Positions 549 through 5,039 of a stretch of DNA of 28,280 nucleotides are shown here, piece after piece. Made by a program: the position numbers and the translations under genes. This DNA comes from a virus. Numbering within the stretch: position 1 is the first letter of the stretch; each line of letters begins with the position of its first letter. The stretch covers positions 1 to 28,280 of the IMG/VR virus record IMGVR_UViG_3300046476_000336; one strand, 5' to 3'. A model generated the notes under the pieces. That model did no database searches, was not told where the DNA came from, and saw only the letters and a program-made list of their open reading frames with translations.

Positions 549-603
549 ACTGGACAAACCTATTAGACTACCGGCGTGACTAAACCTGATGAGAGGAACT
601 GAA

Positions 604-1365
604 ATGAACAGACTAATCCTAGCTGCCGTCCTGCTGGCGGGAACGGCGTTTGCGTCATTGCCAGCGAAAGCGGACATTGTTCTTGGTGGTCAGACTTGGA
701 CCTTCAACGGAGTCGATAACCTGACGTTGACTCCGGTGGTGCCAGGCGGCAATCAACCGCAGAACATTCAGTGCGTGATCTGCGGCGATAACCAGCCGCA
801 GCAAGACACTACCTTCGGCTATACCAACTTCAAGAACAGCGGGAATGTTTCCAGTGAGGCGTTCTTCTCGACCAACGTGTCGGGCGGCGGCAATCCGGGC
901 CTCAACACCATTGGTACGCCCTATGACGGCTCATTCCTGCGGGCGTTCTTGCTTGCCGGTGGCGATCCTAACCTGACGTTCTCAATCGGTGTGGATGTCA
1001 ACGACACCAACAAGGCGCAGACCTTGATGTCGTTCTATCTCTTGAACTTCACGACCAAGACCGTGCTGGCAGCCTTCGACGGGCCGGTGGACGTGCCGTC
1101 GCAGAACAATGGCACGGGCTTCCCCGATTACACTCTCGGCACGTTCAACATCAACATCGGCACCGACATCCATGCGGGTGATCAGTTGATCTTCTTCGCG
1201 CGGCTCGACAACGCAAACGATGGGCCGGACTCGTTCTTCCTTATCCCGACTCCTGTACCCGGTCCCATCGTGGGTGCCGGCATCCCCGGCATGATCGCCG
1301 CTTGTGGTGGTCTATTCGGGCTCAACTTCTGGCGCCGCCGCCGCAATGGTACGCTGCCGGCATAG
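604..1365 (+). CDS. Secreted protein with PEP-CTERM-like C-terminal anchor
   Basis: The product (253 residues from this start) begins with a clear Sec signal peptide, MNRLILAAVLLAGTAFAS then LPAKA, with likely cleavage after AKA at residue 23. The body is Gly/Asn/Thr/Phe rich and probably beta-structured, with one CVIC pair. The C-terminus has a Pro-rich linker (PTPVPGPIVGAG), a hydrophobic segment (MIAACGGLFGLNF) and an RRRR cluster, the three-part layout of PEP-CTERM and related exosortase sorting signals, in a variant I associate with Bradyrhizobium-type proteins. I chose the ATG at 604 because GAGAGGAA (591-598) sits five bases before it; the ATG at 589 would place that site inside the gene. 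It is flanked by its own promoter and terminator, as in phage morons. Ligand and role are unknown. Confidence 0.8.
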   Translation: MNRLILAAVLLAGTAFASLPAKADIVLGGQTWTFNGVDNLTLTPVVPGGNQPQNIQCVICGDNQPQQDTTFGYTNFKNSGNVSSEAFFSTNVSGGGNPGLNTIGTPYDGSFLRAFLLAGGDPNLTFSIGVDVNDTNKAQTLMSFYLLNFTTKTVLAAFDGPVDVPSQNNGTGFPDYTLGTFNINIGTDIHAGDQLIFFARLDNANDGPDSFFLIPTPVPGPIVGAGIPGMIAACGGLFGLNFWRRRRNGTLPA

Positions 1366-1426: not shown

Positions 1427-1696
1427 ATGCCGTCAAAAGTTCGTTGGCGATCAGACGAGCCGGGGCGCGAGCCGGCATATCGCCGATCGCAGAATATCAT
1501 CCATGATCGCCTCGCCAATCAGGACGGCTGTATCACGTTCCTGCTAGTTGAACTGCGCGCATTGCAGAAGCGCGTGGCCAAACTTGAACAACACAATGCA
1601 CACACCGCTGCCAATATGGTCAGAGCGGCTTACGAACGCGTGGAGGAAGTTCGGGACGAGTTGGAGCAGCGTGATGAATTGAGCGCACAGCCATGA
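1427..1696 (+). CDS. Hypothetical coiled-coil protein
   Basis: An 89-residue protein of unknown function. The N-terminal 25 residues are Arg rich. From about residue 38 it is a probable coiled coil, with regularly spaced Leu/Val and many Glu/Arg (LLVELRALQKRVAKLEQH, later ERVEEVRDELEQRDEL). It begins 12 bases after the terminator hairpin. GGGGGA at 1418-1423 is a close, imperfect ribosome-binding site. Its stop overlaps the next start (ATGA at 1693-1696), and it ends in SAQP, the CAGCCATGA junction that recurs through this module. It may be a small phage regulatory or structural accessory protein; nothing more specific can be said. Confidence 0.6.
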   Translation: MPSKVRWRSDEPGREPAYRRSQNIIHDRLANQDGCITFLLVELRALQKRVAKLEQHNAHTAANMVRAAYERVEEVRDELEQRDELSAQP

Positions 1697-1980
1697 CCGC
1701 CTTTTGCCGCAGTTGCGACTTGCTCACAATTGAGAATGCCGAGCTACGGGCCGACAACGATCGGCTGCGGGCCGGAATGCGAGAGTATGCCTGCACTGGC
1801 ACCGATCATCCATGCGGGTGCTACACTCAATTTCTTAGTGAGCGCGCCGACAACGAGCGGCTGCGGGTGGAAAATAAGGGACTGCGCGAATTGATCCTGA
1901 ACGCTTCTGCGAACTTCGAACATTACGGCTTATCGGCGCACGCTATGGCCTACCGCCGCGCCTTGGAGCCAAAGCCGTGA
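1693..1980 (+). CDS. Hypothetical coiled-coil protein ending in RRALEPKP
   Basis: A 95-residue protein with two related coiled-coil blocks: IENAELRADNDRLRAGM at about 13-29 and ADNERLRVENKGLRELIL at about 51-68. A Cys-containing stretch, CTGTDHPCGCY, lies between them. The two blocks share the pattern ADN-RLR and may be an internal duplication. Start and stop overlap the neighbours (ATGA upstream, GTGA downstream), so it sits in a coupled chain. The last residues, RRALEPKP, are encoded by a DNA repeat that also ends the next gene. Function is unknown; the Cys residues could bind metal. Confidence 0.6.
   Translation: MTAFCRSCDLLTIENAELRADNDRLRAGMREYACTGTDHPCGCYTQFLSERADNERLRVENKGLRELILNASANFEHYGLSAHAMAYRRALEPKP
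1953..1980 (+). repeat. Gene-end repeat, copy 1 of 3
   Basis: A 28-base sequence (CCGCCGCGCC, then TTGGAGCCAAAGCCGTGA) encodes the terminal RRALEPKP of the coiled-coil gene and carries the GTGA that ends it and starts the next. Near-identical copies lie at 2133-2159 and 2273-2300. Confidence 0.85.
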
Positions 1981-2159
1981 CTGACACCAGAGTGCGGATG
2001 CTACTTGTAGAGAGCGACCGCGCTGTATGCGTTGGCGGGCGGTGGGATGGTTGGCTGTTCTGGCTGCATCCAAACGGGAGTTGGATTTCCGCTAGAAAAT
2101 TAACTGAAACGGAACCAACAATTGACCCGGCTCGCCGCGCCCTGGAGCCAAAGCCGTGA
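1977..2159 (+). CDS. Hypothetical small protein ending in RRALEPKP
   Basis: The 60-residue product starts at GTG inside the upstream stop (GTGA). It looks like a compact beta protein: RVRMLLVESDRAVCVGGRWDG is followed by WLFWLHPNGSWISA, suggesting paired strands rich in Trp. No family is recognised. Its final eight residues, RRALEPKP, match those of the preceding gene although the rest is unrelated, which suggests that gene bodies have been exchanged next to a fixed end sequence. Its own stop again overlaps a GTG start (2156-2159). Confidence 0.55.
   Translation: MTDTRVRMLLVESDRAVCVGGRWDGWLFWLHPNGSWISARKLTETEPTIDPARRALEPKP
2133..2159 (+). repeat. Gene-end repeat, copy 2 of 3
   Basis: A 27-base copy of the gene-end sequence, differing from copy 1 at one internal base (CCCTGG for CCTTGG). 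It is in the same reading frame, encodes RRALEPKP and carries the GTGA stop/start overlap. Confidence 0.85.
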
Positions 2160-2272
2160 TCGTAGAGTTCGTGCAAAATTATTGGCTTGACGCGCTGATA
2201 GTGCTGGCCGCCTTGATTGTCGCACCGACGATCATCGCAATAATTTTAGTAGAGTGGACCGGCGGCGGATGA
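2156..2272 (+). CDS. Very small single-pass membrane protein
   Basis: This 38-residue ORF starts at GTG in a GTGA overlap with the previous stop. Residues about 12-32 (DALIVLAALIVAPTIIAIIL) are one strongly hydrophobic helix, flanked by the short N-terminus MIVEFVQNYW and by VEWTGGG. The coupling and the clean hydrophobic segment argue for a real gene despite its size. Function is unknown; a small membrane-acting phage peptide is possible. Confidence 0.5.
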   Translation: MIVEFVQNYWLDALIVLAALIVAPTIIAIILVEWTGGG

Positions 2273-2300
2273 CCGCCGCGCCTTGGAGCCAAAACCATGA
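2273..2300 (+). repeat. Gene-end repeat, copy 3 of 3, without its gene
   Basis: A 28-base copy that keeps the RRALEPKP reading frame and ends in ATGA rather than GTGA. It lies just after the stop of the small membrane ORF (2270-2272), and the repeat's own frame is closed by a TAG at 2250-2252, so no sizeable gene now uses this end. It separates the two tiny membrane ORFs. Confidence 0.8.
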
Positions 2301-2383
2301 CCGATGTGCTGCTGATACTGATTTGCATTGCACTATGGATCATAGGAGTGGGGGTGATGGCTCTGTTGGAGCTTAGGCCATGA
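2297..2383 (+). CDS. Very small membrane peptide
   Basis: A 28-residue ORF that starts at the ATG inside gene-end repeat copy 3. It is almost wholly one hydrophobic helix (VLLILICIALWIIGVGVMAL, residues 4-23) followed by LELRP. Its stop overlaps the next start (ATGA at 2380-2383). Coupling on both sides and the uninterrupted hydrophobic segment support translation; the role is unknown. A chance hydrophobic ORF cannot be excluded at this length. Confidence 0.4.
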   Translation: MTDVLLILICIALWIIGVGVMALLELRP

Positions 2384-2556
2384 CCGAGCGCAAATCATTC
2401 CCTTGTGCGGTGTGCGGAAGGCCAGACGCAATATCAATTGACGAGGCCCTTGATGGCTACGACACATGCACCGACTGTGTGCCACGCCACCGCCCACTAA
2501 ACGCGGACCAAGTCCGAGCTATGTTTGCGGCCAAAGACACGGCAAGGCAGCCATGA
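2380..2556 (+). CDS. Small zinc-ribbon-like protein
   Basis: The 58-residue product has two CxxC pairs, C9-x2-C12 and C30-x2-C33, separated by 17 residues, the usual spacing of a zinc ribbon or treble-clef knuckle. The rest is polar. Both ends overlap neighbours by ATGA. Its first bases (ATGACCGAGCGCA) are identical to those of the next gene, another sign of shared junctions in this chain. It could be a small DNA- or RNA-binding phage protein; the metal-binding call comes only from the cysteine pattern. Confidence 0.55.
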   Translation: MTERKSFPCAVCGRPDAISIDEALDGYDTCTDCVPRHRPLNADQVRAMFAAKDTARQP

Positions 2557-3059
2557 CCGAGCGCACAGCAGTCCATCCCGACGCGGTCGTCTACACCTGT
2601 CTATACAGGCACTTCGATAAGGACGGAGCGCTTCTATACGTCGGCGTATCGCTGAGCGCGGTCCACCGGCTCGCCCAGCATCGAGACGCATCGCATTGGT
2701 ATGCGGAAATCGCGAGCGTCAAAATTGAGCGGTTCACCGACCGGAAGGAAGCGCTGACCGCCGAACGCGCAGCCATCACAGCGGAGAACCCGCGTCACAA
2801 CTTATACAGGCCCTCTGTCAAAGAGGTTGCCAGGACCAGAGCGGACGACAGCCGGCAAGACCTAGTTCGCAGGCTTGTACAGTTCAACCCACTTTATTCG
2901 CTAGAAAATGCTGCTGTCGTTCTGCAGTGTGGCAAGACCGCCATCGATAGACTTATCAATTCTGGTGAGCTTGGCTTCGTCACTATTCCCCATGGTGGGG
3001 GGGCACGTCGTCGCATTACTGGCTGGCAACTGATTGACTTCCTTGAAGCTCGCGCATGA
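2553..3059 (+). CDS. GIY-YIG nuclease-like domain fused to a helix-turn-helix
   Basis: A 168-residue protein in two parts. Residues about 12-86 resemble the GIY-YIG nuclease fold: VYTCLY and LLYVGVS correspond to the GIY and YIG strands, followed by RLAQH (R39) and a Glu-rich helix (AERAAITAENP) near the usual catalytic Glu position. Residues about 113-166 look like an excisionase/HTH_17-type domain (SLENAAVVLQCGKTAIDRLI, then RRRITGWQLIDFL). Such proteins could cut DNA at a site chosen by the HTH. I chose the ATG at 2553 because it overlaps the upstream stop (ATGA) and a 29-residue upstream extension would overlap the zinc-ribbon gene. A G7 tract lies near the 3' end. Catalytic activity is unproven. 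Confidence 0.7.
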   Translation: MTERTAVHPDAVVYTCLYRHFDKDGALLYVGVSLSAVHRLAQHRDASHWYAEIASVKIERFTDRKEALTAERAAITAENPRHNLYRPSVKEVARTRADDSRQDLVRRLVQFNPLYSLENAAVVLQCGKTAIDRLINSGELGFVTIPHGGGARRRITGWQLIDFLEARA

Positions 3060-3265
3060 CCGAACGAATGGCTTTCAGCGTTGAAGAAGTCTGCGACATA
3101 CTCGGTGTGTCGCACGTGACAGTCTATGCGCGGATCAAAGACGGCACCTTGCGCTCGGCCTCATTCGGCAGGCGACGCCTGATCCTGCGAAAGGACGTTG
3201 AGGCGCTGTTTCAGACCATGGGCCGTGATATGGGCAGGAAAGCATTAGAGGAAAAACAGCAATGA
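3056..3265 (+). CDS. Excisionase-family helix-turn-helix DNA-binding protein
   Basis: The 69-residue product matches the common phage excisionase/MerR-like HTH_17 layout: FSVEEVCDILGVSHVTVYARIKDGTL forms the two-helix DNA-binding unit, then SFGRRRLILRKDVEAL forms the wing and C-terminal helix. It could be an excisionase, a repressor-like regulator or another small DNA-binding protein. It overlaps the GIY-YIG gene by ATGA and may share its targets, since both carry related HTH modules. No integrase is nearby, so a role in excision cannot be inferred from position. Confidence 0.8.
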   Translation: MTERMAFSVEEVCDILGVSHVTVYARIKDGTLRSASFGRRRLILRKDVEALFQTMGRDMGRKALEEKQQ

Positions 3266-3936: not shown

Positions 3937-4923
3937 CTAGCTTGTGGCCGGATAGATCACCGTCACCTCGTCGTCGGTGCTCACGCCGAGGCTGTCGGCG
4001 AGCGCCGGCGAGAGGTCGGCCGCCCGGCCGGTCTGTTCCTCGTGCGGCCCCCAATCGGCCGGATGCGCCAGCCGCGACACGCCGGTATCCTTGCTGGTCA
4101 CCAGCGCCATCTGGCCGCTGTCGCGCAGCATCGTCTTGGGCGTCACATCGTAGTCCCAGCGGCAGGCCAGATAGAACACGCTGGGATCGAGCCTGCGGGC
4201 AAGCCCGCTCGTCCCTGCCGGCTGATATTCCAGAAATAGCCAGGGCGCCTCGTCGTAATCGTAGATGAATGCGAGGCCCTCGCTCGGCGACACGCCGGTA
4301 TCGGCGGGACCACCAAAGGTCGAGCACGTTCCTTCGGCGAAGAACAGCACACCGCTCGGCGGCGGTTCCGGTTCCGGCCCCGGCGTGGCCTCATCGCCTG
4401 CCAGCGCGCCGGCAATAGCCGAGCAGATATCGCCATACTTTGCCCGGTAGATGTCGGTGTCGGCTTTCGCGTCGACGAAACAGACTTCGACGAGGCATGC
4501 CGGTTTGTTGGTACCGTTGAGAAACGCGAGGTCGGATCGGTGTTTTGCTCCACGCTGGATCAGTCCAGAAGCGGTACATACGGCCTCGCAAATTGCCTTG
4601 GCGATCTTCTCGCCCTTGCTGCTGACATAAAGGCACTCGTGCCCGCGCCCGCCTTGCGTCACCTCGTAGGCATTGAAATGGATCGACAGGTCGGCGTCCC
4701 TGGTCTGCTGGTTGTGCCACGACACGATCTTATTGAGGTTGGCCGACTGCGAGGTCGACGTGTCGTCGTGGAACGTGACGCAGTCGACGCCCATACCGCG
4801 CAGTTCTGTTGCCGTCGCCTCTACAACTTTCCTGGCCTCGTTGACCTCGTCGAGTCCCCACGGGGATGGACCGGCAGCGCCGCGCACGATCTTCGAATGG
4901 CCGCTCGACATAGCTATTTTCAT
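3937..4923 (-). CDS. Endolysin: N-acetylmuramoyl-L-alanine amidase with C-terminal barrel-like domain
   Basis: Residues about 1-175 match the zinc-dependent Amidase_3 fold, which cleaves the lactyl-peptide bond of peptidoglycan. Visible residues are SSGH (H9), E29 in VNEAR, H82 in SIHFNA and E146 in LVEVCF, the three zinc ligands and the catalytic Glu (numbered from the ATG at 4923). A Pro-rich linker (PGPEPEPPPSG) leads to a domain with FGGPADTG, CRWDYDVTPK, HPADWGPH and GRAADLSPALADSLGV, which resembles RlpA-like double-psi barrels and may bind the cell wall. The ATG overlaps the upstream stop (TGATG); a GTG one codon earlier is an alternative. There is no signal peptide, so export needs a holin. 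Confidence 0.85.
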   Translation of the reverse strand: MKIAMSSGHSKIVRGAAGPSPWGLDEVNEARKVVEATATELRGMGVDCVTFHDDTSTSQSANLNKIVSWHNQQTRDADLSIHFNAYEVTQGGRGHECLYVSSKGEKIAKAICEAVCTASGLIQRGAKHRSDLAFLNGTNKPACLVEVCFVDAKADTDIYRAKYGDICSAIAGALAGDEATPGPEPEPPPSGVLFFAEGTCSTFGGPADTGVSPSEGLAFIYDYDEAPWLFLEYQPAGTSGLARRLDPSVFYLACRWDYDVTPKTMLRDSGQMALVTSKDTGVSRLAHPADWGPHEEQTGRAADLSPALADSLGVSTDDEVTVIYPATS

Positions 4924-5039
4924 CACGTCACCACATCAGACCATTGGTCCCAGCCGAGCCAGGATAGGAACGCCAGCACCAGCAGCGCCGTGATGAAGAT
5001 GATGATCCACGGCAGCGCCTCGTAGCGGCGAGGCGTCAT
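4923..5039 (-). CDS. Small single-pass membrane protein, holin candidate
   Basis: A 38-residue protein: a charged N-terminus ([10 protein letters not shown]), one hydrophobic helix ([20 protein letters not shown], residues 11-30) and a short acidic tail. It starts within the upstream stop (ATGA) and its stop overlaps the endolysin start (TGATG), so it is translated directly before the endolysin. Position and topology suit a minimal holin or pinholin-like peptide. It is too short for confident family assignment. Confidence 0.6.

Follow-up and report, generated by a model that had tools for sequence, protein, structure and literature searches.

The question raised by this locus is why a run of very small viral genes carries one and the same short sequence at three successive gene borders. 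The DNA analysed (the window) comprises 28,280 nt, positions 1 to 28,280 of IMG/VR record IMGVR_UViG_3300046476_000336. The pattern CGCCGCGCCYTGGAGCCAAARCCRTGA has exactly three matches there, all on the plus strand and in the places given by the first-pass annotation; 100 dinucleotide shuffles gave none even when three mismatches were allowed, and the chance expectation is 0. That annotation had gone on to propose that small genes are swapped, gained or lost by recombination at this fixed junction, which also keeps translational coupling. The features of the region are:

1693-1980, plus strand: cassette gene 1, 95 aa, coiled-coil-like, with two ADN(E/D)RLR heptad modules and the tail RRALEPKP
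1954-1980, plus strand: junction copy 1, the in-frame RRALEPKP tail of the ORF at 1693-1980, with Shine-Dalgarno (SD) GGAG and a GTGA stop/start overlap
1977-2159, plus strand: cassette gene 2, 60 aa, without known family, tail RRALEPKP
2133-2159, plus strand: junction copy 2, the in-frame RRALEPKP tail of the ORF at 1977-2159, with a GTGA stop/start overlap
2156-2272, plus strand: cassette gene 3, 38 aa, a hydrophobic (membrane-like) peptide that stops before the junction
2269-2272, plus strand: ATGA, in which the stop of the ORF at 2156-2272 overlaps a start codon fused directly to copy 3
2274-2300, plus strand: junction copy 3, out of frame with the preceding ORF, with the ATGA start of the ORF at 2297-2383
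2297-2383, plus strand: cassette gene 4, 28 aa, a hydrophobic (membrane-like) peptide whose start is supplied by copy 3
2380-2556, plus strand: next array gene, 58 aa, Cys-rich, with below-cutoff similarity to Lar and an ATGA overlap with gene 4
2551-3059, plus strand: small protein joining a GIY-YIG and an HTH_17 domain, at the end of the array
3056-3265, plus strand: HTH_17 (excisionase-like) gene, the conserved right flank
3937-4926, minus strand: endolysin gene, convergent

The genes between the copies had been called unrelated, and their products (one coiled coil, one 60-aa protein outside any known family and two membrane-spanning-looking peptides) indeed have nothing in common except the tail. 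The RRALEPKP tail with its stop/start overlap had been ascribed to all three copies; it is present at copies 1 and 2, but copy 3 is not the tail of the preceding gene. The ORF at 2156-2272 ends (stop at 2270-2272) in a different frame, just 5′ of copy 3, and the ATGA at 2269-2272 together with copy 3 looks like an empty, frame-shifted slot. The earlier statement, that a gene has been lost at copy 3, describes this arrangement fairly, although copy 3 still starts the 28-aa ORF of gene 4. A similar emptied-slot-like state is found in L006 and L060; L101 has a 14-codon mini-ORF (MTDLIARRALEPKP) that results from the in-frame fusion of a start to the junction. All three copies possess GGAG, an 8-nt spacer and overlapping stop and start codons, a geometry which is consistent with the coupling that had been proposed. 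Smaller repeats are also present: the heptad modules of gene 1 correspond to a DNA repeat (1747-1771 and 1843-1867), and the start module GCCATGACCGAGCGCA of the gene at 2380-2556 recurs at 2550-2574.

The junction recurs in other viral contigs. A scan of 2.9 million of them for the strict pattern returned 47, and looser patterns raised this to 62-63; overall, about 65 viral contigs contain the core CGCGCCCTGGAGCCMAAGCCRTGA, at up to six sites per contig, and they come from 40 metagenome datasets (counted by contig name in the last looser-scan list). The comparison set used below consists of metagenome contigs gathered by the junction motif itself. A scan of 257 Gb of cellular genomes gave one match, at an apparent ispD/ispF border in a Lysobacteraceae MAG (the identity of these genes is our reading of the proteins). 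Because this sole match is apparently due to chance, the junction is regarded as viral sequence. A host-prophage junction was rejected on the same grounds, and the term prophage, used in the first-pass annotation, is not borne out, since the window also lacks an integrase-family match.

The window array has no match in cultured-phage DNA. Searches with very short queries revealed single, degenerate copies of the junction, each at a gene border, in Rhizobium phages RHph_I1_23 and TM3_3_14B, Pseudomonas phage AF, and cyanophage Cy-LDV1. Most of the E-values lie between 0.03 and 1 or are worse, and we therefore accept as a likely relative RHph_I1_23 alone (E 6e-5), whose degenerate junction lies downstream of a gene annotated as ERF. 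As a separate observation, the cultured phages RHph_I1_23 (L112) and RHph_TM3_3_14B (L115) both possess small-gene arrays with the degenerate junction and have swapped protein pieces in common (SALAPQAGDNAEEPVA, SHPCTSTPVVSQNAP).

The 93 copies with distinct flanks are characterized by a conserved 24-nt core preceded by a weaker GCCCGC; the information content of the core is high, and the conserved stretch ends near -6 and +25. These 24 bp hold the tail of a gene (RALEPKP), the Shine-Dalgarno sequence GGAG eight bases 5′ of an ATG or GTG, and the overlap of that start with TGA (RTGA). Among the copies encoding RALEPKP the silent sites are near-fixed for GAG (69/69), AAG (68/69) and CTG (66/69), against background frequencies of 0.64, 0.54 and 0.43, respectively; those of the Ala and first Pro codons are variable. 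When every synonymous codon was allowed, the scan of the 2.9 million contigs gained a single contig, from which it follows that the DNA is conserved and not the peptide alone. Peptide-level selection on RRALEPKP alone was rejected for this reason. The upstream frame is coding, third positions holding 110 of the 160 substitutions.

At the 126 sites analysed, 70 upstream and 65 downstream sequence families meet in 84 pairings; 11 upstream families have several downstream partners and seven downstream families several upstream partners. The same short DNA therefore borders non-homologous genes in different phages. Upstream family U3, for instance, is joined to D1 in L012, L022 and L039 and to D5 in L013 and L030, while U6 is joined to D8 in L008 and L034 and to D13 in L017 and L045. 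Several of the alternative pairings recur in more than one dataset, which makes assembly chimeras unlikely as a general explanation; single cases may be chimeric. Comparison of 68 cassette proteins with Pfam and PHROGs revealed almost no function beyond HTH_17, AlpA, and HNH.

Where, then, do related contigs part? Representative pairs sharing the upstream gene are approximately 90-100% identical through the TGA and about 30% identical within 2 nt after it, and in pairs sharing the downstream gene the switch in identity falls at the 5′ edge of the motif. L013 and L030 are 97% identical over the 1,587 nt ending with copy 2 and likewise from the start of copy 3 onward, the junction-flanked unit between (272-299 nt, ~0.3 kb) being missing in L030. 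The gene before the first junction is common to L013 and L030 and is replaced in L028, while the genes after it are common to L013 and L028. Compared with L011, L044 contains one further unit of 440 nt, and in L020 and L037 the divergence lies between junctions. The same junction thus borders different small ORFs in related contigs and its copy number differs, whereas an invariant set of three genes in one order, without reuse of the junction, was not seen. These comparisons support the exchange at a fixed junction that had been suggested from the window.

With breakpoints collapsed within each contig, 61 alignment-block ends fall at the junction, as against 18.7±4.5 under a local-shift null (maximum 35 in 500 shifts); the contigs are related, and therefore the counts are not fully independent. 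Near the arrays, 179 of 240 breakpoints lie away from this junction. The DNA encoding the heptad (A)EIERLRA in coiled-coil genes has 36, compared to 14.2±3.8 expected, and L008 and L034 differ by 84 nt between two copies of it. Placing the breakpoints at the gene-end junction was thus correct but incomplete, since they also gather at this intragenic module, and the shuffling covers parts of genes as well as whole genes. AAEIERLRA-coding DNA is a recurrent breakpoint inside coiled-coil small genes in the pairs L008/L034, L055/L104, and L020/L037.

The neighbourhood of the arrays points to a candidate enzyme. In sister contigs the array is located 0.5-2.6 kb downstream of a Red-type operon in which an SSAP gene and an exonuclease gene, Erf and YqaJ, are adjacent. 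Erf is found upstream of 35 array loci and YqaJ of 40, always on the same strand, and the convergent endolysin lies downstream in 33 of the loci counted (window included), its orientation kept without exception; some are near-duplicate loci drawn from different datasets. Erf is 29-100% identical to the two queries, whereas the junction hardly varies. Eight of the 22 longer records encode Erf and three RecT (11/22). The window has neither Erf nor YqaJ; the left flank of its array, at just 1.95 kb, is too short to show them, and the enzyme is accordingly deduced from the sister contigs. With the array loci the window shares the endolysin and the HTH flank, the latter with 79% DNA identity in L012, L022, and L039.

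A P22-type portal scores above the family cut-off in four records. The window encodes a tape-measure protein and a portal of another PHROG group, which we read as HK97-type; neither its portal nor its terminase matches anything in the other records, which are fragments, so that this absence weighs little. Judged by these assignments, different head modules appear to carry the same array junction, the P22 portals being the positive evidence. Two terminase families were uninformative as lineage markers. To the left of the array, window positions 589-1365 encode a secreted-looking protein with a PEP-CTERM-like end (VPGPIVGAGIPGMI...RRRR), relatives of which, up to 70% identical, were found in 20 fetched loci.

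In our view the repeat is likely to serve a small-gene array as its conserved boundary (linker) sequence, one which preserves translational coupling and at which units are exchanged by homologous recombination, likely through Erf and YqaJ. A single block of 24-30 bp unites a gene's end with the overlapping stop/start and with the ribosome-binding site used by the gene that follows. With this block repeated at many slots, homologous recombination could take place between two copies, whether they sit in a single genome or in two phages infecting the same cell, and could insert, delete or exchange whole genes; since each block closes one gene and supplies the ribosome-binding site and start of the following one, such an exchange would leave frame, stop and translation start intact. 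The exchanges were probably made by the phage's own annealing recombinase with its exonuclease, as synteny in the sister phages suggests, and translation across the junction is presumably coupled. The block is about as long as the minimal pairing length (MEPS) of Redbeta (23-27 bp) and slightly shorter than that of RecA (31-34 bp; PMC3945230); by analogy, Erf may behave like Redbeta here.

The alternative that survives best, which we nevertheless regard as improbable, is that the block is kept only as a good coupled ribosome-binding site, its copies having arisen by convergence or selection and not by recombination. GGAG stands 8 nt 5′ of the starts; constancy is greatest in TGGAG and AAGCCRTGA, even at silent sites; and a long open frame runs into the tail at approximately 80 of 91 sites, while at the remaining 11 (short or out-of-frame) the block is kept without being translated as the tail of a long gene. 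The SASs of Cluster K mycobacteriophages are similar in position: in the passages of PMC3203893 consulted they are conserved, short, SD-bearing blocks before the starts of unrelated genes, in one orientation and absent from hosts. Those passages give a 13-bp consensus (GGGATAGGAGCCC), mostly after gaps above 50 bp, and describe no cassette exchange; the junction consensus differs, and the block lies inside the end of the upstream ORF at 80 of the 91 sites. Moreover, the motif is missing from 63 of the 142 stop/start overlaps in these arrays, conservation reaches upstream of the SD to about -6, and the precise loss or swap of units between near-identical contigs is left unexplained by a ribosome-binding role. 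Under the boundary-sequence reading the block may be kept both as a working ribosome-binding site and by its spread through recombination, two causes not separated here.

An old gene duplication, in which diverged paralogues retain RRALEPKP as a functional C-terminal peptide, is very unlikely. As this would predict, many of the proteins encoded upstream are coiled coils of the EIERLR kind whose natural end is IARRALE-like, but the same tail is carried by hydrophobic peptides and Cys-rich proteins as well as by coiled coils, the nucleotide-level edges are sharp, synonymous variants of the peptide are nearly absent in the 2.9 million contigs, and some copies are not translated as a tail.

We give similarly little credence to a site-specific cassette system, integron-like or integrase-driven, even though gain and loss proceed unit by unit at a fixed site and five of the 22 longer records have integrase-family (tyrosine-recombinase) matches, among which the integron type is not distinguished. 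The Erf-bearing records and the window have no integrase match, and the block is short, asymmetric and unstructured, whereas integron attC is a folded site of imperfect inverted repeats. Folding revealed no structure above that of shuffles (MFE z +0.48; core fold -1.5 kcal/mol), and an RNA hairpin or attC was rejected accordingly. Least credible is homing by free-standing HNH or GIY-YIG nucleases that cut and drag neighbouring genes between phages: HNH genes adjoin junctions in L027, L040 and L101 and the window has the GIY-YIG domain at 2551-3059, but only one HNH-matching cluster was found among the cassette proteins scanned, so that for most swapped units none of the genes at the junctions encodes a nuclease, and nucleases would act alongside the shared junction, not in place of it.

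Short conserved boundary (linker) sequences have been proposed to account for phage mosaicism (refs 21, 22 cited in PMC3029335). As summarized there, these are short stretches of conserved DNA at module borders with non-homologous genes between, at which homologous recombination was suggested; here, by comparison, the same block occurs up to six times per array, includes a ribosome-binding site and stop/start, and adds a peptide tail to unrelated genes. In Cluster I mycobacteriophages, the adjacent Island3 genes for gp67 and gp68 have a common 18-residue C-terminus, alike at the DNA level too; gene 68 is absent from Brujita, and recombination at the repeat was proposed (PMC3029335). That was a single event, as against about 90 distinct junctions in approximately 65 contigs and many gene families. 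Relaxed homologous recombination by the Rad52-like Redbeta/RecT drives phage mosaics (PMC3945230, PMC2327257). The likeness lies in a phage-encoded Rad52-like recombinase tolerant of short homology, and the difference in that diverged homologous genes are exchanged there and a dedicated-looking, uniform adaptor is present here. No description of this junction was found in the literature searched (subscription papers lay outside the search), and it is an unusually clear new form of the boundary-sequence idea. The role of such sequences in mosaicism is an old question, which becomes testable since one boundary is here obvious, repeated, countable, and beside a recombinase operon. The junction also suggests how tiny phage genes come and go without breaking the translation of their neighbours, and provides a sequence by which shuffled accessory genes can be located in metagenomes.

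A more speculative extension, put forward tentatively, is that phages keep a set of standard DNA adaptors (gene-start, EIERLR heptad and gene-end/stop-start modules) with which Erf and YqaJ might assemble and exchange small accessory genes or gene halves combinatorially, an integrase-free analogue of the integron common to soil phages whose portals are of the P22 and HK97 types. A 25-nt gene-start module, RTGACCGACATYGTYGARCGGCTGC (MTDIVERLR), shows no breakpoint enrichment (6 vs 6.6 expected). In a broader range of phages (L052-L096) it stands before small genes of many kinds and occurs up to three times in 1.5 kb, for example at L054:50-637.
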